From the NCBI RefSeq assembly GCF_963676935.1, contig NZ_OY781470.1, forward strand, positions 806,001-870,000: a stretch of DNA of 64,000 nt, in the 5' to 3' direction. The translations under genes and the position numbers were made by a program. Of the stretch, positions 36,800-55,955 are shown piece after piece. A model generated the notes under the pieces. That model made no database searches. It worked only from the letters and a program-made list of their open reading frames with translations, and was not told where the DNA came from. This DNA comes from Halarcobacter sp. GTDB taxonomy: Bacteria > Campylobacterota > Campylobacteria > Campylobacterales > Arcobacteraceae. The number at the start of each line of letters is the position of its first letter. Position 1 is the first letter of the stretch.

Positions 36800-36858
36800 C
36801 TCTTATCCTTTTTTTTGATATAATAGATTAATATTATATACTTAACAAAGGTGTAATC

Positions 36859-38465
36859 TTGACACATAAAATTCTAGTTTCAGATAATGATATTAAGTTA
36901 GTAGCTTTTTTACAAGAAAGAATAAAAGACAGAAGATTTCAGTTTATTTTAGCCTTATCCTTAGAACAAGTATTAGAACAATTAACAAATGAAAGCTTTT
37001 TTGCAGCAATTGTAGATTTTGAAAAAACAGATGATGATGGCAAAAAAATTGTTGAATATGTTTTAGAAAAAAAAATTCCTACTATAGCTACTGTTGAAGA
37101 GCTTACATCTAGTAAATATGGAGAGTTAGAAAAGTATTCAATTATAGATTATGTAATAAATAATAACTATGCAGGTAAGTTTTATTTAGCAGATTTATTA
37201 CAAGGTTTAGAGTATTTTAATGGCAGAAAAGTCTTAATCTGTTATGACAATAGAAAAGCTGACAAATTGGAATCTCTCGTACAAATATTCAATTCGTTAT
37301 TATTTGAGCCTTTATTAGCAACTTCAATGAAAGAAGCAAAAAGTATATTAAGTAAAGAAGATAATTTAAGAGTAATATATATTGATGAGAGTATAAAAGG
37401 TGGAAGTGGTATAGAACTTTGTAGAGAGATAAAACAAGATATTAAGTTTAAAGATACAGTTGTATTCTCAGGTGCACAAAATAAAAATGATTTAATGGAA
37501 TTAAAAGAGATAAGAGGAAAATTTTATAAAAGTGGTGTAAAAGATTTTATCACTGTTCCTGTCGATAAAGAGGAGTTTAATACAAATATCCTTAGCATGA
37601 TGAAGATTATAAAACAGAAAAAGAGACTTGATACTTATGTTGAAACTGTAGATAAATATGTGTTAATCTCGATAACTAACTTAAAGGGATAATTGTTTAT
37701 GCTAGTGATGCTTTTTGTAAAATTAGTGGATATAGTAAAAAAGAGTTAATAGGAAAATCTCATAACATTGTTAGACATCCTGATATGTCCTCTTCTATAT
37801 ATGAAGAGTTGTGGAAAACTATAAAAAGAGGTGAAGTCTGGTCAGGTGAAATAAAGAATAAGAAAAAAAACGGGGATTTTTATTGGGTAAATGTAAAGAT
37901 AGAGCCAATATATGATGCTTTTGGTGAAGTTATGGGGTATCAATCTGTTAGGTTTGATATAACAGATAAAAAGCTTGTTGAGGAGTTGTCTTTAACCGAT
38001 TCTTTATTAGGTATTTATAATAGACGAAAATTTAATGAAATAATTGATTATCAATTTACTGTATGGAGAAGATTTAAAGAACCATTTAGTTTAATTTTTA
38101 TTGATTTAGATGATTTTAAATCAGTGAATGATTTATATGGACACAATCAAGGTGATAGAGTGTTAATTGAGTTTACAAATGTTATAAATAAAACTATCAG
38201 AGATGTAGATAGCTTTTGTAGATGGGGTGGAGAAGAATTTCTTATAATCTGTCCTTACACTGATGTAGAAGGAGTTCAAGTTTTAGCTCAAAAAGCAAGA
38301 ACAGAACTAGAAAATTATACTTTTACTGATATTGGACAAAAAACTGCAAGTTTTGGTGTCGCAACAGTAAATGAAAAAGATACTATAGATACTTTGATAA
38401 AAAGAGCAGATGAAGCCCTATATAAAGCAAAAAAGCTTGGTAAAAATAGAGTTGAATTTTTATAA
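36859..38465 (+). pseudogene. Two-receiver/PAS/GGDEF response regulator, frameshifted
   Basis: Reads as one gene of about 535 codons broken by a frameshift. Part 1 (36859-37692, TTG start) has two receiver-like domains (about 1-115 and 123-245) and stops just inside a PAS domain. In the shifted frame from 37689 the PAS continues without a gap (YASDAFCKISGYSKKELIGK ... NIVRHPDM). A GGDEF domain follows with active site RWGGEEF and I-site RDVD five residues earlier (second open part, first ATG 37785, to 38465). One base is missing near AAAGGGATAA at 37684-37692. It could be a true pseudogene or a sequence error. The receiver domains look degenerate. Confidence 0.82.
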
Positions 38466-46985: not shown

Positions 46986-47174
46986 TTTTATAATCATATT
47001 TTTTCTTAAAAGTATTAAAATATAATCATTTTATGGATTTTGTAGACTTATATTTAATTAACTATTTATTCTAAATATTAATTAAAATAAGTTATTTTTT
47101 TATCTTTTTTAAGTTTTAAAAGATAATAAAAGTAAATTTTATATATAATAAATTTTTTAAAGGAAATGTTAAGT

Positions 47175-48902
47175 ATGATTGCTATTGAAAAAAAGATAAA
47201 AAATAGAATACTAATTTTAATTTTGATGATTTTATTAACTACTGGAATTGTAATTATTTCATATGAAAATTATCTAATTAAAAATCATATTGAACATGAT
47301 ATTAGTACTAAAAATAAAAATATAAATAAAACTTTTAATCTTTTTATTGATGAATTAGATAAAGATATTGCAGAAAGAACAAATTTTATGCTTAGTTATA
47401 ATACTAGATTAGCATTAAAAAATAGGGATAGAAAAGCATTATATAAAAATGCAAAAGAACATTTTAAAAGAATGCGTAATAATAATAAGTATTTAAAAAT
47501 AATGACTTTTAGACTTCCTGATGGAAGTGCTTTTTTAAGAGTACATAAGCCAAAGATGTTTGGAGATAGTCTAGATAAAAAAAGAAAAATTATACTTGAC
47601 ACTATATTAAGTCAAAAAAGACAATTTGGTTTTGAAGTTGGAAAGTTAAAAATGACCCATAGAATTGTAACTCCTATATTTTATGATAATAAGTTGATAG
47701 GTGTTGTAGAGATTGGCGTTGAACCTGAATATATAATTGAAAAGATTAATAATATTTTTAATATAGAGTCTTCACTCTTTGTAAAAAATGAACAATTGGA
47801 ATTTACTTTACACAAAATAGAGGATAATTATAAGTATAAAGTTAATGATTTTATTTTTGTAAGGGGAAGTAAACTTATAAAAGACAATTTACAAAAAATT
47901 GATTTTGATAAAAAAATATCAAAAATAGAATATAAAGGAAAAAATTACTATATTGATACTATAAAACTTTTTGATCACAAAGGTAAAACTGCTGCAAAAA
48001 TGCTTATTTCTTACGATTTAACTGCTTTCAAAAAAGAGTTTGATGAAATGCTTGAAAAGAATCTTATGATAACTTTTTTAGTAATCATAATACTTTTTGT
48101 AGTTTTAAATATGGGCTTAAATTACTTTTTAAAAAAGATAGATAGTTTATATTTGAATATTCTAAAAAAAGATAAAATGATGTTACATCAATCTAAACTT
48201 GCCTCAATGGGTGAAATGATAGGTAATATTGCCCACCAATGGAGACAACCTTTAAGTGTAATTTCAACAAGTGCAAGTGGAATTAGAGTTCAAAATGAAT
48301 TGGGTGTACTCAATGATGAAACTTTACATAATTCAGTAAATGGAATTGTAAATAGTACTAAATATCTTTCTCAAACAATTGATGATTTTATGGATTTTGT
48401 AAAAAATGATAAAAGTGCAGTAGAGTTTGATATAAAAGAAAATATTGAAAAAAATATTGAGATATTAAAAGGCAGTTTAAAAATTCATCAAATAAATTTA
48501 GTATTAAATTGTCATAAAGAGTATATAAAAGGTTTTCCTAATGAATTAACTCAAGTATTTATAAATATTGTTCATAATGCAAAAGATGCATTAAAAGAAC
48601 AAAATGTAAAAGAAAAATATATATTTATTGAAACAAATAAAACAGATAAAGATGTAGAAATTATTATTAAAGATAATGCTAATGGAATTCCTAATCATAT
48701 CATAAATAAAGTTTTTGATCCTTATTTTACTACTAAAAATGAGTCAAATGGGACGGGATTAGGTTTATATATGTCATATAGAATTATTACTGAAAGTATG
48801 AAAGGTAATATAAAAGTTGAAAATGTAGAATATAATTTTAATGAAAAAACATATATAGGAGCAATGTTTACTATATCTTTACCTTTTAGTTGTCAAAACT
48901 AA
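47175..48902 (+). CDS. Membrane sensor histidine kinase with dCache_3-like sensor
   Basis: 575 residues. Two membrane segments (about 9-28 and 290-315) flank a periplasmic sensor containing TFRLPDGSAFLRVHKPKMFG, the pattern of the dCache_3 family. The kinase core shows the H box IAHQWRQPLS (phospho-His near residue 352), N box NIVHNAKDALKE, and G boxes DNANGIPNHI and GTGLGLYMS. I take the ATG at 47175 because AAAGGA lies ten bases upstream; the ATG at 47166 is too close to it. No response regulator is adjacent on this strand. The lone receiver at 53847 is one possible partner. Its stop codon overlaps that of the convergent kinase gene. Confidence 0.9.
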   Translation: MIAIEKKIKNRILILILMILLTTGIVIISYENYLIKNHIEHDISTKNKNINKTFNLFIDELDKDIAERTNFMLSYNTRLALKNRDRKALYKNAKEHFKRMRNNNKYLKIMTFRLPDGSAFLRVHKPKMFGDSLDKKRKIILDTILSQKRQFGFEVGKLKMTHRIVTPIFYDNKLIGVVEIGVEPEYIIEKINNIFNIESSLFVKNEQLEFTLHKIEDNYKYKVNDFIFVRGSKLIKDNLQKIDFDKKISKIEYKGKNYYIDTIKLFDHKGKTAAKMLISYDLTAFKKEFDEMLEKNLMITFLVIIILFVVLNMGLNYFLKKIDSLYLNILKKDKMMLHQSKLASMGEMIGNIAHQWRQPLSVISTSASGIRVQNELGVLNDETLHNSVNGIVNSTKYLSQTIDDFMDFVKNDKSAVEFDIKENIEKNIEILKGSLKIHQINLVLNCHKEYIKGFPNELTQVFINIVHNAKDALKEQNVKEKYIFIETNKTDKDVEIIIKDNANGIPNHIINKVFDPYFTTKNESNGTGLGLYMSYRIITESMKGNIKVENVEYNFNEKTYIGAMFTISLPFSCQN

Positions 48903-49843
48903 TTTGATAAAGCTTGTTTAAGGGTAAATTTTGCTCCATTTTCTATATTTGCAGCACTAAGAAGAGTATTATTTTTCCTAGCAATTTGACAGCTCATATA
49001 AAGTCCAATTCCTGTACCGTTTTCTTTTTTTGTAGTGAAATTAGATTTGAATATTTCATCAATAATATCTTCTTTTATTCCACCGGCATTATCGCTTATT
49101 TCTAAAATATTAAAATTGTCTTTTTGATATATTTTTATAAGAATTTTTCTATCTTTTCTATCTTTAAAAATAAAAGCATCTTTAGAATTGTTTAATATAT
49201 TTAATAAAATATGTTTAAATTCATTTTCAATACCTTTAATTTTAAAATCATTTATCTTTTCAATCTTAATATCTATTTTATATTTGATATATTCATCTTT
49301 TATAAACATTAAAACTTTATCAATCATCTGTTTTGCACTAAAATATGATTGTTCTTTATTTGGTCTGAAAAATGTTCTAAATTCATTTAATGTTGTATTC
49401 ATATGTTCTATAACATCAGTCATCTTTCCCTGAAAATCATTAATGTATTTTTCATCTATTTGCCCAGATTGGAAGTCTAAATCTAACATACTTAATTTAA
49501 GATTTAATATTCCTAGTGGTTGAGCCCATTGGTGTGCTATTGCATCAATCATCTCACCCATGGCAGCAAATTTTGATTGTTCTAATAGGATTTTTTCATT
49601 TTTTTCTCTTTTTTCAATCTCTTCCTCAACTTTTTTTTCAAGATTGTTTTTATATTCATCTAATTCTTCATTTGCTTCTAACAATCTTAGTTGCATTTTG
49701 TCACTTTGTTTGATGATTTTGTCAAGTCTTTCGCTCTTTCTTTTATAATCCTCTAATAATTCAAGTAAACCATCTTTAAAATGGTCATAATCTTTTTTTA
49801 GAAATTTTCCTACATATTGTTTATTTAGATTGTCTTTTCTCAT
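48899..49843 (-). CDS. Cytoplasmic sensor histidine kinase with coiled-coil N-terminus
   Basis: 314 residues with no membrane segment. A coiled coil (about 30-85, e.g. LEANEELDEYKNNLEKKVEEE) leads into the H box MIDAIAHQWAQPLGIL, N box HILLNILNNSKDAF and G boxes ISDNAGGIKEDII and GTGIGLYMS. Its start overlaps the stop of the SBP-PAS-SpoIIE gene by four bases, so it is the third gene of that operon and may read signals from the neighbouring sensor proteins. Its partner receiver may be the 118-residue receiver at 53847 in the divergent operon; this is inference. Confidence 0.9.
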   Translation of the reverse strand: MRKDNLNKQYVGKFLKKDYDHFKDGLLELLEDYKRKSERLDKIIKQSDKMQLRLLEANEELDEYKNNLEKKVEEEIEKREKNEKILLEQSKFAAMGEMIDAIAHQWAQPLGILNLKLSMLDLDFQSGQIDEKYINDFQGKMTDVIEHMNTTLNEFRTFFRPNKEQSYFSAKQMIDKVLMFIKDEYIKYKIDIKIEKINDFKIKGIENEFKHILLNILNNSKDAFIFKDRKDRKILIKIYQKDNFNILEISDNAGGIKEDIIDEIFKSNFTTKKENGTGIGLYMSCQIARKNNTLLSAANIENGAKFTLKQALSN

Positions 49844-52800
49844 ATTTTAAATCCTATTAGAGCCATATCATCATTTCTTTCAAAGTTACCTTGATACTCC
49901 ATTATTTCATAAAGAAGAATCTCTTGTTGATCAGAAAATGGTAAATCATAATTATCTTCAAGAAGTTTTTTAAATCTTCTTTTACCAAAAGGAAATCCTT
50001 TTTGTCCTCCATTTTGGTCTAAATAACCATCTGTTGAGATATAAAATTGCATCCCTTTAGTTAATTCTATAGTGTGTTCTGTAAACTCATAATTTTTATC
50101 AGATTTTTTATATCCAATAGATTGTCTATCACCTTTTAAAACAGTAAACACTCCATTTTCTTCATAAAAAAGAGGTATTTCTGCACCTGCATATTTGATT
50201 ATATTATTTTTTTTATTATAATATAGAATTCCTCCATCAAAGCCGGCATTAGAAATAGATGTTTCATCTTCTTGTTTTAATAGATGTTTCATGCTTTTGT
50301 TAAAAATCGATAATATTTTTGCAGGACTTACAATCTCATCTTTGTTTTTTAGATTTGATACTATCTGTCTTTCTATTGCTTTTACTAACATTGTTACAAA
50401 AGCACCTGGTACTCCATGTCCTGTACAATCGATAAGCATTAGAATACATTCATTTTCATCTCTTAATCCTTCAAATAAATATATATCTCCTCCTACAATA
50501 TCTTTTGGATGCCAGATTGCAAAATAGTCACTAAAATATTTTTTAAAAGATGAATTTTCAGGAATTAAGGCATGTTGTATTAAAGAAGCGTATTCAATAC
50601 TATCTTTAGTTTGTTGATGTATAAGTTCAATCTCTTTTTTTGCTTTTTCTAAATCTATAGTTCTTTCTTTAACTTTAATTTCAAGGTTTTTACTTAAATC
50701 TTCAACAATTTTTTTATCTGAAATATCTTGACTTATTGCTTTATATCCTATGTGATTTGAGTATTTATCATAATCTAATTCTATTTTTGAATAAAGCCAA
50801 TATGCAGTACCATCTTTTTTTCTATTTTTTATTTCACCTTCCCATGTTTTACCTTTCTTTAAACTCTTCCAAAGTTGTTTGAATAGTTTTTGTGGCATAT
50901 CAGGATGTCTAACAATACTATGGGGTTGACCTATTAATTCTTTATTAGAATAACCAGAAATATTACAAAATGCTGTACTTACTTTTTTAATATTTCCTTT
51001 TTTGTCTGTATTTGAGAAGATTACATTTTTATCTAAAGATATTAAAGTATTTTCAAGTTGTTCTTTTTGGTTTTTTATATCTGCTGTTTTTCTATCAACA
51101 AGTTGCCTTAATTTTTTATTCCAATATACAATTATTGATATAACAATTAGAATAATAATAATTACTGGGAATATATATGATAAAACTTTTTTAAGTGAGA
51201 AACCTTTGTTTTCTTCAACTTTTACTTTGATCCAACCATTATAAATTCTTTCTCTATCTATTTCTGATATTGTTCTAAAAACTTTGTTTACTATTGAAAG
51301 TAACTCAGGCATTTTAGGATTTATTAGGTAGTGGTGGTTAAAGTCTTTTCCTGTTTGCCCAGCAAGTTTAAGATTGTCTTTTCCTATTTTTGAAATATTA
51401 TAAAGTGCAGGAGCAATATGACCTATAAATACATCTGCTTCATGGTTAGATACTTTTAATAAAGCTTCAAAAATACTTCTGGTTTCTATTATTTTAATAT
51501 CAGGATATAAACCTTTTATATAATTGTAGCTTGTATAATGTTTTGGTATTGCAAATACTTTATTTTTAATTTTATCTAAAGATTCAACATAATCAATATT
51601 GTCATTTGTAACTATAACCATTGGATAAGAGGCATATCTATTTGAAATTAATCCTAAAAGTATCTCTTCTTTTGAATCACCAATTCCTGGGACCAAATCA
51701 ATTTCACCATTTTTAAACTTTTTAAGTACATCAGACCAAGAGTTTGAAGGTACGAATTTAAACTCAATACCTGTAGTTTCTGATACAAAATTTAAATAAT
51801 CTCCCATAATACCTGACATTGAACCATTTTCAATAATTGATAAAGGTTTCCAATTTATTTCACTATATTTAACAACTGTTTTTTTATCTAACCATTGATA
51901 CTCTTTTTTACTAAAATTAATTTGTCTTTTTTTATCAAACCATTTTAGTTTGAGTTTATCAATATCTTGAATAGATACTTTTTTCATTGCTTTTTTTAGT
52001 ATGGAGTGTAATTCAGGTGCATCATTTCTTACTGCAATATACAAGTTTTCCATTTCAGGGTCATCAGCTTTTACATCAGCAGTATATTTTAATCCCTTAA
52101 TCACATTTTCTTGCATAATATTGTTTAATATAGCTGTTTTACCTAAAGTCGCATCGACTTCTCCATATACTACTGCTTTTATACTTTCCAAAGTGTCATT
52201 ATATATAACAATTTCAATTTTAGGGTATTTGTTTTTTAAATATTTTTCATATATAAAACCTTTTATAACAGATACTTTTTTGCCAAAAAGTGATTCGATA
52301 TCTGCTATATCACTTCTATCATCTTTTGTTAATATTGAAGTTACATTTCTTGCATAAACACCTACATAAGAGAGTTTTTCTTCTCTGTCTTTAGTTTTTG
52401 CAATATTCATCATAACATCAATCTCTTTGTTATATGCTCTATTTAAAGATTCATTCCAAGTTCCAGTAACAAATTTTATTTCAAAACCAGCAATTTTTGA
52501 TAATAAATTAATATAGTCTATTGAGTAACCAAGTGGTAAACCATTTTTATTGAAGTTAAAAGGAGCCCAATCGTATTCATTATGAACTTTTATTATAGGG
52601 TGTTCAGTAAGCCACTTTTTTTCCTCTTTTGTTAATTCTATTCTAATGTTTTGTTTTTTTGAACAAACATCCATTCTACCTATTAATTCATCCTTATAGG
52701 TGATTTCATATGTTTCTTTTTTACATTCTATTTGTAGATGTTCTTCATCAAAATTTTCTTGTGCAATCTCATGTTCTCTATTTTTATATAAAAACAAAAA

Positions 52801-53004
52801 TCTTTTGCTTGTCAAAGAATCATATAGAGTAATATATTTGATTTGATCATTTTTGTCCATATGATTTTTCAAAATATTAATCACTTCATTTTCATCTAAT
52901 ACATAAAATGGATTAGCAATTTGATTAGCTATATCTTTGTTTGTACTTATGGCAAATGAGCTAGAAAATATAAGAATAATTGTTAAAAAAATTTTAAGTA
53001 TCAT
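49840..53004 (-). CDS. Sensor phosphatase: SBP-SBP-TM-PAS-SpoIIE (SiaA-like)
   Basis: 1054 residues. Signal peptide 1-19; two family-3 solute-binding domains at about 134-357 (VHNEYDWAPFNFNKNGLPLG) and 375-592 (WKPLSIIENGSMSGIMGDYL); one membrane helix 608-628; PAS 650-765 (STAFCNISGYSNKELIGQ, SIVRHPDMP); coiled coil to about 805; PP2C/SpoIIE phosphatase 830-1054. The phosphatase keeps metal-binding Asp residues (VGGD 837-840, IDCTGHG 858-864, STDG 990-993, NDDMALIGF). It is the likely counterpart of SiaA, which dephosphorylates SiaC in Pseudomonas; siaB- and siaC-like genes are divergent next door. Ligands may be small amino-acid-like solutes. It overlaps both neighbours by four bases. Confidence 0.9.
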   Translation of the reverse strand: MILKIFLTIILIFSSSFAISTNKDIANQIANPFYVLDENEVINILKNHMDKNDQIKYITLYDSLTSKRFLFLYKNREHEIAQENFDEEHLQIECKKETYEITYKDELIGRMDVCSKKQNIRIELTKEEKKWLTEHPIIKVHNEYDWAPFNFNKNGLPLGYSIDYINLLSKIAGFEIKFVTGTWNESLNRAYNKEIDVMMNIAKTKDREEKLSYVGVYARNVTSILTKDDRSDIADIESLFGKKVSVIKGFIYEKYLKNKYPKIEIVIYNDTLESIKAVVYGEVDATLGKTAILNNIMQENVIKGLKYTADVKADDPEMENLYIAVRNDAPELHSILKKAMKKVSIQDIDKLKLKWFDKKRQINFSKKEYQWLDKKTVVKYSEINWKPLSIIENGSMSGIMGDYLNFVSETTGIEFKFVPSNSWSDVLKKFKNGEIDLVPGIGDSKEEILLGLISNRYASYPMVIVTNDNIDYVESLDKIKNKVFAIPKHYTSYNYIKGLYPDIKIIETRSIFEALLKVSNHEADVFIGHIAPALYNISKIGKDNLKLAGQTGKDFNHHYLINPKMPELLSIVNKVFRTISEIDRERIYNGWIKVKVEENKGFSLKKVLSYIFPVIIIILIVISIIVYWNKKLRQLVDRKTADIKNQKEQLENTLISLDKNVIFSNTDKKGNIKKVSTAFCNISGYSNKELIGQPHSIVRHPDMPQKLFKQLWKSLKKGKTWEGEIKNRKKDGTAYWLYSKIELDYDKYSNHIGYKAISQDISDKKIVEDLSKNLEIKVKERTIDLEKAKKEIELIHQQTKDSIEYASLIQHALIPENSSFKKYFSDYFAIWHPKDIVGGDIYLFEGLRDENECILMLIDCTGHGVPGAFVTMLVKAIERQIVSNLKNKDEIVSPAKILSIFNKSMKHLLKQEDETSISNAGFDGGILYYNKKNNIIKYAGAEIPLFYEENGVFTVLKGDRQSIGYKKSDKNYEFTEHTIELTKGMQFYISTDGYLDQNGGQKGFPFGKRRFKKLLEDNYDLPFSDQQEILLYEIMEYQGNFERNDDMALIGFKI

Positions 53005-53714
53005 TTAAGAGGCTTTATATATTTGTTAATAAGTTTTATAGTTTCATTTGAAACATTTTTTGAACAAATTAGATATCGTTTATTTCCTTTTGGTATATTT
53101 TTTACACTAAAAAATTTAAGATTATTCATTGCTTTATCATTTAATAAAATTTTTGCTTCTTCTTCTGAAATAAATAAATAATCAGCCCTTTTTGCAACAA
53201 TCATTGAAAGCATTTTTTTGTTATTAGTATAAACTTCTTTTTTTATTGTTTTAAAGTTTTTTATTTTTTCATCTAAAAAAGAACCATATGAGTAAGAAGC
53301 TTTAGAAAGTAAGCTTAAGTTTCTATTTTTTAATAAATTATCGACGGAGATATTTTTTAATATATTCTCATTCTCTTTTCTAGAGATTATTCCTAAGGGT
53401 TTGTCTTGATATAAAGGATGAGTAAATTTTGCAAACTCTTCTCTTTGTATATTTTTAAACCATCCAATTGCACACATTTTATTTATATTAGCTTTAATTT
53501 CATATAAATGTCTTTTTGATGGTTTCTCTTTCAATTTATATTTTACACCAGAATATTGTAATGCTTTTAATACAGGAGTAGCAACTAATCCTTTTATTGA
53601 ATTTGAATATTTTTCTACATAAGGTATTCTCTCTTCATACACTATAAATAAAGGGTTATCTGCTTTGAGTAATATTGTAAAAAGTGTTGTCAAAAAGAAA
53701 AATATTTTAAACAT
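53001..53714 (-). CDS. Periplasmic family-3 solute-binding protein
   Basis: 237 residues, with a signal peptide (1-18) and the SBP_bac_3 pattern: FIVYEERIPYVEKYSNSIKG, then VATPVLKALQYSGVKYKL and a late SEEEAKILL. It is smaller and divergent from ABC-transporter binding proteins and no transporter genes are near. It is first in the operon and overlaps the SBP-PAS-SpoIIE gene by four bases, so it probably helps sensing by that protein rather than uptake. Confidence 0.82.
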   Translation of the reverse strand: MFKIFFFLTTLFTILLKADNPLFIVYEERIPYVEKYSNSIKGLVATPVLKALQYSGVKYKLKEKPSKRHLYEIKANINKMCAIGWFKNIQREEFAKFTHPLYQDKPLGIISRKENENILKNISVDNLLKNRNLSLLSKASYSYGSFLDEKIKNFKTIKKEVYTNNKKMLSMIVAKRADYLFISEEEAKILLNDKAMNNLKFFSVKNIPKGNKRYLICSKNVSNETIKLINKYIKPLK

Positions 53715-53782
53715 TTTTATCCTTTATTGAAAATTATATTATAATGTATATAAAAAGTAATTATAAAGTGATATTATTTATT

Positions 53783-53797
53783 ATACAAAAGTTGTAT
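53783..53797. promoter_or_regulatory. Inverted repeat in the divergent Sia-like promoter region
   Basis: ATACAA-AAG-TTGTAT lies midway between the starts of the SBP operon (minus) and the receiver-SiaB-SiaC operon (plus), 132 bp apart. It is well placed for a regulator that controls both units. Confidence 0.35.
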
Positions 53798-53846
53798 TAA
53801 AGTATATTTTTGTAATTATTATTTAATCATAAAATTAAGGTAAATT

Positions 53847-54203
53847 GTGAAATTTTTAATTGTAGATGATTCAAAAATTGCTAGAAAAAGATTAAATTCA
53901 TATTTAAATGAATTAAATTATGTAGTTTTAGGTGAAGCAATTGATGGATTAGATGCAATAGATAAGTTTAAATCACTAAAACCTTCTTATATTACACTAG
54001 ATTTAGAGATGCCTAAATTAAATGGAATAGATACTGCAAAAAAATTATTTGAAATAGATCCAAATGTAAAAATCATATTAATCACATCTATTTTAGATAA
54101 AAAAGAGATAATTAATGCGTATAGAATAGGAATTAAAAAAGTTATTACAAAACCCTTTTCAATAGAAAAATTAAAAGAATCTATTGAAGAGATAAAAGGT
54201 TAA
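53847..54203 (+). CDS. Single-domain response regulator (CheY-like)
   Basis: 118 residues, receiver domain only. The acidic pocket is DDSK near residue 7-10, the phospho-acceptor Asp is in YITLDLEMPKLNG (about residue 53), Thr/Ser in LITSILDKK, and Lys in ITKPFSIEKL. The start is GTG after TAAGGTAAATT. It leads the siaB/siaC/HD-GYP-like operon, so a kinase signal may enter the partner switch here. Candidate donors are the two histidine kinases at 47-50 kb. Confidence 0.92.
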   Translation: MKFLIVDDSKIARKRLNSYLNELNYVVLGEAIDGLDAIDKFKSLKPSYITLDLEMPKLNGIDTAKKLFEIDPNVKIILITSILDKKEIINAYRIGIKKVITKPFSIEKLKESIEEIKG

Positions 54204-54206
54204 AAT

Positions 54207-54764
54207 ATGAATATAAAAATGATTCAAGATATAGTAGAAGAAGATGGCATTATATTTTTAACGTATGGAGGTTTTCTTTCTCAATCATTAATTTCATCTA
54301 TGATGGAAGCTTTGGAAAAAGAAGCAAAAGAAAGAGATTTAAATTTAGGTGTTGCAAGTAATATTTTTACTATTTTTATTGAATTAACACAAAATATGAT
54401 GAATTATTCAAAAACAAAAAATATTGATTGTAATGAGTTAAATCCACAAGGTTTAATTATTGTTACAAAAGATTTAGAAGAAAACTATTTTATTCATAGT
54501 CAAAATATAATTACGCAAAAAGACAAAGATAAAATTCAACCAAAATTAGAGGAGCTAATTGATTTAAATAGAGAAGAAGTAAAAAAAAGATATAGAGAAT
54601 TAAGAAGAAGTGGAAAAGATAAGCATGGTAAAGGTGGGGGAATTGGCTTTTATGAAATTGCAAAAAGAAGTGATGAAATAAAGTTTAGTTTTAGGGAAAT
54701 AAACAAAGATAAATTTTATTTTCATTTTATTGCAAAAATTGTTACAAAAAAGGAGAAGAAATAA
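54207..54764 (+). CDS. SiaB-like protein kinase
   Basis: 185 residues. The fold is GHKL-type: an N-box ELTQNMMNYSK (59-69, with Glu59 and Asn63) and a glycine-rich lid GKGGGIGFYEIA (141-152). This matches the SiaB family (DUF6272), in which the kinase phosphorylates SiaC in Pseudomonas. It is three bases after the receiver gene and one base before the siaC-like gene, so the three should be made together. The target phosphosite is predicted in the next protein. Confidence 0.85.
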   Translation: MNIKMIQDIVEEDGIIFLTYGGFLSQSLISSMMEALEKEAKERDLNLGVASNIFTIFIELTQNMMNYSKTKNIDCNELNPQGLIIVTKDLEENYFIHSQNIITQKDKDKIQPKLEELIDLNREEVKKRYRELRRSGKDKHGKGGGIGFYEIAKRSDEIKFSFREINKDKFYFHFIAKIVTKKEKK

Positions 54765-55142
54765 ATGGAAAAGTTAATAATTAAGGAAACAAAATATACT
54801 CCTTTTATAAAACTTGATAATGAAAAAGGATTAATGGAATTAGTTGGAAAATCCTATCCTGAAAATACATTCGAGTTTTATAAACCAATGTTAGATTGGG
54901 TTGAAGAGTATTTTGAAAAAAATGATAAAAAAACTATAGTGAATATGGAAATTATTTATTTTAATTCTAGTAGTTCAAAACTATTTTTTGATTTTTTTGA
55001 CCTTTTAGAAGAAGCACATAATAATGGTAAATCTATTGAGATAAATTGGATTTATGATGAAGAAAATGAAAGTGCATTAGAAGCGGGAGAAGATTTTAAA
55101 GAGGATTTTGAAGATTTAAATTTTAATTTAATAGAAAAATAA
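54765..55142 (+). CDS. SiaC-like protein (DUF1987)
   Basis: 125 residues with the DUF1987 pattern: TPFIKLDNEKGLMELVGKSY, PMLDWVEEYFE, and IIYFNSSSSKLFFDFF. Residue 68 is the first Ser of NSSSSK; from memory Pseudomonas SiaC is phosphorylated on Thr68 of NTSS, so Ser68 is the likely phosphosite here. Unphosphorylated SiaC binds and activates the diguanylate cyclase SiaD. Here the next gene encodes an HD-GYP protein, the probable target. It abuts the siaB-like gene. Confidence 0.88.
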   Translation: MEKLIIKETKYTPFIKLDNEKGLMELVGKSYPENTFEFYKPMLDWVEEYFEKNDKKTIVNMEIIYFNSSSSKLFFDFFDLLEEAHNNGKSIEINWIYDEENESALEAGEDFKEDFEDLNFNLIEK

Positions 55143-55156
55143 TTATTGGAAATAAT

Positions 55157-55955
55157 ATGCTTGGAAATGAAAATAAACTAGTTTCAGAACTACATGAACT
55201 ACAAAATAATTTTAAAAAAACAACTGATAAGTTGATTAAAGATATTAATCGTCATGATAAAATTATGGCTCAAAGTGATAAAAGACAGCAAAAAGAGTAT
55301 GATGAACTTCAAGTAAGACTTAAAGAGGTTGAAGCTTTAAGTAAAGAGATTGAAGAGACTCAACGAGAAGTTGTTTTTACTATGGGTGCTATTGGGGAAA
55401 GTAGAAGTAAAGAAACAGGAAATCATGTAAAAAGAGTAGCTGAGTATTCAAAAGTTTTTGCTTTATATTATGGTTTACCTGAAAAAGAAGCAGAGATGTT
55501 AAAACAAGCTAGTCCCATGCATGATATAGGGAAGGTTGCTATTCCTGATGCAGTTTTGAATAAACCAGGTAGGTTTAGAAGAGGAAAGAAAAATAATGAA
55601 TACCCATTCCCAGTTAGGGTATGACATGTTAAAACACTCAAATAGATCTTTACTAAAATGTGCAGCGACAGTAGCATATGAACATCATGAAAAATGGGAT
55701 GGCACAGGATATCCAAGAAAACTAAAAGGTGAAGAGATTCATATATATGGAAGAATAACAGCAATGGCTGATGTTTTTGATGCTTTAGGAAGTGATAGAT
55801 GCTATAAAGAAGCTTGGGATGATGAAAAGATATTTAATCTTTTTAAAGAGGAAAGAGGAAAACATTTTGAACCAAAACTAGTAGATATCTTTTTTGAACA
55901 TTTAGATGAGTTCTTAGAAATAAGAGAAACATTAAAAGATGAATATGAAAAATAA
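55157..55955 (+). pseudogene. HD-GYP c-di-GMP phosphodiesterase with coiled-coil N-terminus, frameshifted
   Basis: Reads as one gene of about 266 codons. Part 1 (55157-55624) has a coiled coil (about 8-75) and the first half of the HD-GYP domain with His90, the HD pair (MHDIGK, 121-126) and NKPGRF. The domain continues in the +1 frame from about 55578 (EEERKIMNTHSQLGYDML; second open part, first ATG 55596, to 55955) with the GYP motif HHEKWDGTGYP. Family spacing suggests two bases were lost next to 55577 rather than one gained. All metal ligands survive across the break. It may be a recent pseudogene or a sequence error. Its place after siaC-like makes it the likely output. Confidence 0.85.

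Follow-up and report, generated by a model that had tools for sequence, protein, structure and literature searches.

The stretch analysed here, 64,000 nucleotides of the Halarcobacter sp. genome (contig NZ_OY781470.1, positions 806,001 to 870,000; hereafter the window), carries at about 49 to 56 kb two divergent operons that encode a Sia-type partner switch, made up of a SiaA-related phosphatase, a SiaB family kinase and their predicted phospho-acceptor SiaC. We propose, with a probability of roughly 0.72, that the outputs of this switch are an HD-GYP phosphodiesterase and a cytoplasmic histidine kinase, with SiaC docking on the N-terminal stalks of both. The proposal is carried by the genes themselves, a docking motif on the two stalks, the co-inheritance of siaC and dock among relatives, conserved interface and catalytic residues, and a predicted helical stalk.

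A Sia-type switch in two divergent operons

Domain calls at the locus come from searches with Pfam and NCBIfam models; the host genome is 3.1 Mb in one contig. The minus-strand operon runs from a periplasmic binding-like protein through a phosphatase with two SBP domains, a PAS domain and a SpoIIE domain to a soluble histidine kinase, and the plus-strand operon from a receiver through the SiaB family kinase and SiaC to the HD-GYP protein. The features are as follows.

48899..49843, minus: soluble histidine kinase, HisKA-like/HATPase_c (Pfam HATPase_c) after an N-terminal SiaC-dock stalk
49691-49729, minus: dock motif of the histidine kinase stalk, RLDKIIKQSDKMQ (motif match)
49840..53004, minus: SiaA-like phosphatase with signal peptide, two periplasmic SBP_bac_3 domains, one transmembrane segment (residues 601-633), PAS and PP2C/SpoIIE (Pfam)
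49849-50457, minus: PP2C/SpoIIE domain of the phosphatase (Pfam)
53001..53714, minus: periplasmic solute-binding-like protein, first gene of its operon (SBP_bac_3, E = 5e-4, and TIGR02285, each below cut-off)
53715..53846, no strand: shared intergenic (promoter) region of the divergent operons, 132 bp, from the flanking open reading frame (ORF) coordinates
53847..54203, plus: lone CheY-like receiver (Response_reg, E = 3e-25)
54207..54764, plus: SiaB family kinase, DUF6272 (NCBIfam SiaB_fam_kinase, NF038262, 130 bits, cut-off 85)
54765..55142, plus: SiaC (PF09345, 150 bits)
54966-54968, plus: Ser68 codon of SiaC, predicted phospho-acceptor
55157..55624, plus: 5' fragment of the HD-GYP gene, dock stalk plus the HD domain's first half (HDIGK); frame breaks near 55577
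55250-55288, plus: dock motif of the HD-GYP stalk, RHDKIMAQSDKRQ (motif match)
55596..55955, plus: 3' fragment of the HD-GYP gene in another frame, HHEKWDGTGYP and C-terminal helices; homology from about 55578, HD_5 profile positions 79-170
47166..48902, plus: membrane dCache histidine kinase without a dock (Pfam)

The models bear out the phosphatase gene (49840-53004, minus strand), the receiver, the SiaB-like kinase and the SiaC-like DUF1987 gene that an earlier note had read from this sequence. The shared 132-bp region described there exists exactly as given, but the minus-strand gene facing it is the binding protein, and the phosphatase comes second. A promoter and terminator scan of this region returned matches no commoner than in shuffled sequence.

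The phosphatase domain matches the SiaA-PP2C structure 6K4E (E = 7e-36), the SiaB-like kinase matches SiaB in 6KKO (chain A, E = 3e-13) with the catalytic Glu region, IELTQN, in alignment, and SiaC, encoded by the sole siaC of the whole genome, matches 6KKO and 7E6G. Position 68 is Ser or Thr in all 104 aligned SiaC proteins (Ser in the window), and the interface residues Y65, N67, S/T68, S69, D79, D/E110 and D114 are retained, with D110 in the window protein. The locus thus has each component of a Sia-type partner switch: a PP2C/SpoIIE phosphatase related to SiaA, a SiaB family kinase, and a SiaC with Ser/Thr68 and the stalk-contact residues. Since all three proteins score below the equivalog cut-offs for SiaA, SiaB and SiaC of Pseudomonas aeruginosa (264 against 700, 80 against 225 and 127 against 150 bits), they are, judged by sequence, related rather than orthologous to that system. 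The SiaA model matches over the phosphatase region (E = 3e-78), its score remaining under 700 bits because the sensor half differs. Nor is this SiaABCD in the strict sense, which has as output SiaD, a GGDEF enzyme with a SiaC-binding stalk; the two dock proteins of the genome are the HD-GYP protein and the histidine kinase. A weakly resolved SiaC tree, built on a short alignment, separates a 79-row group containing the HD-GYP- and kinase-linked SiaC proteins from P. aeruginosa SiaC and the GGDEF-linked proteins related to it. At one related locus (L090, 7464-8405), SiaB and SiaC are naturally fused in a single protein of 313 residues, followed by a dock-bearing HD-GYP.

The proposed SiaC dock and its carriers

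In the crystal structure of the P. aeruginosa SiaC-SiaD complex (7E6G), SiaC contacts R74, K77, V78, R80, I81, S82, D83, R84, Y85, Q86, M88, R90 and D91 of SiaD (PMC8457831). At its N terminus the HD-GYP protein has a coiled-coil stalk with the motif R..K[IV]...SD[KR].Q....D, of which the histidine kinase has a shorter form, and the motif residues R, K, I, S, D, K/R, Q and D are spaced like SiaD R74, K77, V78, S82, D83, R84, Q86 and D91. Both proteins belong to the class that we define here as SiaC-dock stalk proteins, with a SiaD-type motif in an N-terminal helix. The earlier note had placed an HD-GYP protein where a cyclase would be expected, and this protein does carry the SiaC-binding motif of SiaD. 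AlphaFold2 predicts a single unbroken helix of 77 residues (24-100) that holds the dock and runs into the HD-GYP domain. In 52 short HD-GYP proteins encoded beside siaC, rows chosen by a relaxed motif that 64 of the 67 nearby HD-GYPs satisfy, the dock residues are R in 51, K in 48, I in 51, S in 48, D in 52, K/R in 47, Q in 52 and the last D in 50. The strict motif occurs in 51 of 524 ORFs at most four genes from siaC and in 2 of 397 farther away (p = 5e-11), both of the latter in the same kinase family, and it is absent from all 19,920 shuffled proteins. Within the window genome, a dock profile finds two proteins at E <= 0.001, the HD-GYP protein and the soluble kinase, both at the locus; no other HD-GYP of the genome has the dock motif, and a search for a true SiaD elsewhere found no dock-bearing GGDEF protein.

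Homology between the stalks is clearest on the kinase side. Among 18,950 NCBIfam models, the best match of the window kinase stalk is SiaD (E = 0.0019, SiaD residues 56-93), which also heads the matches of CheA-like stalks and of stalks from related kinases (E as low as 6e-6; SiaD residues 38-96 overall). One comparison of stalk profiles was partly circular, its windows having been picked by the motif, and was set aside for profiles unselected by motif. Of these, the HD-GYP stalk profile finds siaC-linked kinases, GGDEF proteins and CheA-like proteins, while the kinase stalk profile finds an HD-GYP (L084) and a SiaD-like GGDEF protein (L181), so that stalks of different catalytic classes recover each other, in every case within siaC loci. 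The stalks also change owners: in L084 a kinase-type stalk carries an HD-GYP, and in L086 an HD-GYP-type stalk carries a hybrid kinase. At SiaC position 29, the contact of SiaD R90, there is an acidic residue with most GGDEF partners, while SiaC proteins paired with an HD-GYP have Lys there and face Glu-Tyr in the partner's stalk; this pattern is compatible with covariation at the interface, though at the level of sequence it is inseparable from phylogeny.

The partnership extends well beyond the window. We sampled neighbourhoods with the Pfam SiaC model, independently of similarity to the window. A dock-bearing HD-GYP lies within 6 kb of siaC, mostly as the next gene, at 18 of 19 Arcobacteraceae siaC genes (a count that leaves out L101, the second siaC of G035), and a dock kinase is adjacent at 7 of the 19. 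Phylum-wide, a dock HD-GYP lies as close to 14 of 24 siaC genes sampled from Campylobacterota, so that the conserved HD-GYP partner proposed as a check in the earlier note does exist. Among 12 siaC genes sampled from Gammaproteobacteria, none has a dock HD-GYP and 6 have a GGDEF protein with the dock, the SiaD arrangement; SiaC linked to an HD-GYP turns up in some Vibrio, Thiomicrospira and Methylococcaceae records as well. Sulfurovum- and Sulfurimonas-like loci have the order SiaC-kinase-SiaB-phosphatase, without an HD-GYP. Across 104 Arcobacteraceae genomes, searched whole with a dock profile built from siaC loci, 21 have both siaC and dock proteins, 1 and 1 have only one of them and 81 have neither (p = 9e-20, a value inflated by shared descent of one locus).

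Several other enzymes carry the dock, including a PAS-GGDEF protein (L134), CheA-like kinases (L047, L049, L186) and a class III nucleotidyl cyclase (L137). The cyclase (L137, 682-1683, minus strand; also in L139) has an N-terminal SiaC-dock-like stalk and lies 3.7 kb from siaC. The CheA-like kinases of L174 (2827-4986, minus strand) and L186 (5401-7560) combine Hpt/HATPase and CheX-like parts with the dock beside siaC, and the stalk of the L186 gene (the same gene as in L153) matches the SiaD model at E = 6e-6. A second HD-GYP-like type with the same dock, represented by L047 8385-9740 and similar proteins of about 450 residues (L062, L065, L068, L088, L133, L135, L136), is marked by a lengthy insertion within its HD domain; in those read, HHExLIGxGYP replaces HHExxDGxGYP. 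Between siaC and the HD-GYP gene in L028 (7802-8704), L029 (5202-6116), L030 (8387-9289) and L070 (8391-9293) lies a protein of about 300 residues whose GGDEF region resembles that of SiaD but has degenerated (E = 1e-4 against the SiaD model in L030) and which bears a partial dock, possibly a relic of a cyclase output.

Taken more broadly, SiaC is rather probably a general, phosphorylation-controlled adaptor for a portable coiled-coil dock fused to many signalling enzymes: GGDEF cyclases, the two HD-GYP types, soluble histidine kinases, CheA-like and hybrid kinases and the class III nucleotidyl cyclase. If so, one Ser/Thr switch would drive synthesis or breakdown of cyclic diguanylate (c-di-GMP), two-component signalling or other cyclic-nucleotide signalling, and several outputs would be possible at one locus.

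Proposed outputs, the broken HD-GYP frame and the likely direction of control

In the scheme that we propose, SiaB would phosphorylate SiaC at Ser68, and the membrane-bound SiaA-like phosphatase would use its solute-binding domains to sense a small ligand in the periplasm and would strip the phosphate from SiaC. Unphosphorylated SiaC would then dock on the stalk motifs of the HD-GYP protein and the histidine kinase and alter their dimer state and activity, as SiaC does on the stalk of SiaD, and SiaB would reverse this docking. Since SiaC is assumed to activate the HD-GYP as it does SiaD, we would expect by this analogy that a signal to the phosphatase lowers c-di-GMP. The docked kinase would start a phosphoryl flow, possibly to the lone receiver, which may be its target. 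Within this scheme we infer the binding of SiaC (from residues), the sign of regulation, the ligand and the pairing of kinase and receiver. The earlier note had treated two histidine kinases and the receiver as a further layer of input; their domains are as it described, but the small kinase bears the dock. It has no transmembrane or hydrophobic segment, and because the dock is its sole sensor region, a role as second output of SiaC is likelier for it than one as input. Only G068, the closest relative, has the dCache kinase next to the locus (L098), and the receiver is missing from several relatives' loci (e.g., L093, L095 and L096).

The HD-GYP gene, described earlier as one gene, is in fact two overlapping ORFs in different frames, as their coordinates and an alignment with the nearest relative show: the intact 266-residue homologue of G068 aligns over residues 1-140 with frame 2 and over residues 142-265 with frame 3. 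The phosphodiesterase signature, HD...HHExxDGxGYP with eight metal ligands on one chain, is complete in G068 and in 28 homologues, where all eight positions (assigned by motif order) are invariant, and is here split over the two frames. As the ligands, assigned by motif order from the phosphodiesterase PmGH, are divided four and four, neither fragment is expected to be active alone, and the window genome is probably unable to make the enzyme. If made, the truncated 155-residue product would retain the dock and could, speculatively, titrate SiaC. Both halves have a ratio of nonsynonymous to synonymous substitution rates (dN/dS) of 0.04-0.08 against G068, like siaC, and the break is therefore recent or an artefact.

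The frameshift may stem from an error in sequencing or assembly, the living strain then having an intact HD-GYP; this seems to us a real prospect, if somewhat short of an even chance. Normal constraint on both halves speaks for it, as does the state of the relatives: the gene is intact in G068 and other complete relatives, and among 82 HD-GYP ORFs in siaC loci the short ones are all cut by contig ends. Around the locus (about 264 kb, some 69,000 residues), 2 of 216 genes compared are split in the window genome relative to G068, with no reverse case; this fits rare residual errors, yet with so few splits the single-contig assembly is not generally indel-ridden or poor, and the site lies outside any long homopolymer. 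The other split gene, a REC-PAS-GGDEF gene at window 36817-38465, is frameshifted relative to an intact 550-residue homologue in G068. One is a cyclase and one a phosphodiesterase, as if the strain had shed c-di-GMP functions, a pattern that one would expect of selection in culture, not of random error. Unless the frameshift is an error, the broken HD-GYP frame would leave the branch from SiaC to the histidine kinase as the one remaining in this strain.

Several observations weigh against the proposed scheme, beginning with this broken frame. Searched as a profile against the PDB, the HD-GYP stalk drew weak coiled-coil matches only, SiaD not among them, and by itself it does not match the NCBIfam SiaD model; its link to SiaD therefore rests on the residue-level motif, with the kinase stalk as intermediate. 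Each SiaD chain has two docks, against one in the HD-GYP and one in the kinase, and several secondary contacts have changed (SiaC R103 to S and L107 to A; SiaD R80, Y85 and R90 replaced). Receiver and dock kinase co-occur weakly (p = 0.06), and HsbA, a related switch protein, binds its cyclase when phosphorylated (PMC5085249). Coiled coils do yield spurious profile matches and the dock motif is short, so the common stalk could be a generic coiled coil and its adjacency to siaC operon hitch-hiking. We regard this as very improbable, given a motif that neither shuffled proteins nor the genome's other HD-GYPs contain, its coincidence with crystal contacts, its presence on different catalytic domains around siaC, and co-occurrence that holds genome-wide.

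Two further alternatives keep the dock and change what it does. The true output of SiaC in this lineage might be the histidine kinase, whose dock has the clearest homology to SiaD and which is intact here beside a frameshifted HD-GYP, the latter being accessory or decaying; the Sulfurovum- and Sulfurimonas-like order would agree. This is improbable when a dock HD-GYP adjoins siaC far more often than a dock kinase does in Arcobacteraceae and the low dN/dS of the halves makes the break recent or artefactual. It is less improbable, though still unlikely, that unphosphorylated SiaC inhibits the HD-GYP on docking, so that the wiring raises c-di-GMP as in Pseudomonas: a clade that swapped a cyclase for a phosphodiesterase could retain its physiological output only if the effect were inverted. 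HD-GYP proteins, however, are dimers gated by their N-terminal helices. Stabilising a stalk of the same kind would more plausibly activate the enzyme, since SiaC activates SiaD by stabilising its extended dimeric stalk (PMC8457831).

Comparison with known systems

In the literature that we searched, subscription journals being outside its reach, we found no HD-GYP or kinase partner of SiaC; SiaC is known there solely as the activator of SiaD, and the one paper to mention DUF1987 does not settle what this domain does in other bacteria. A dock defined by crystal contacts on enzymes of opposite or unrelated activity predicts that any dock-bearing protein binds unphosphorylated SiaC. If this is true, c-di-GMP breakdown and histidine kinases both come under a partner switch, and Ser/Thr partner switching, c-di-GMP and two-component signalling are joined in marine Campylobacterota and some gammaproteobacteria. 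The portable dock would be more than a variant of the Sia-type switch if binding were shown.

The nearest known system is SiaABCD of P. aeruginosa (PMC7647112, PMC8457831), which shares the SpoIIE/PP2C phosphatase, the SiaB kinase, a SiaC phospho-acceptor at position 68 and, beside siaC, an output enzyme with an N-terminal SiaC-docking stalk. The present locus differs in having an HD-GYP and a histidine kinase as outputs in place of the GGDEF enzyme SiaD, in its single dock per chain, in Ser68 instead of Thr68, and in a phosphatase that would sense through periplasmic binding domains and PAS. The HptB-HsbR-HsbA-HsbD pathway of the same organism (PMC5085249) is similar in that an anti-anti-sigma-like phosphoprotein controls a c-di-GMP enzyme by protein contact, but it uses a STAS domain rather than PF09345 and has a cyclase partner, which the phosphorylated form binds. 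On the enzyme side, the HD-GYP part matches the active phosphodiesterase PmGH (PDB 4MCW; 49% identity, same fold) and shares its E-T-G signature of the trinuclear subgroup (PMC4159591), whereas a SiaC-dock stalk replaces PmGH's own regulatory domain, on a gene that is split in the window genome.

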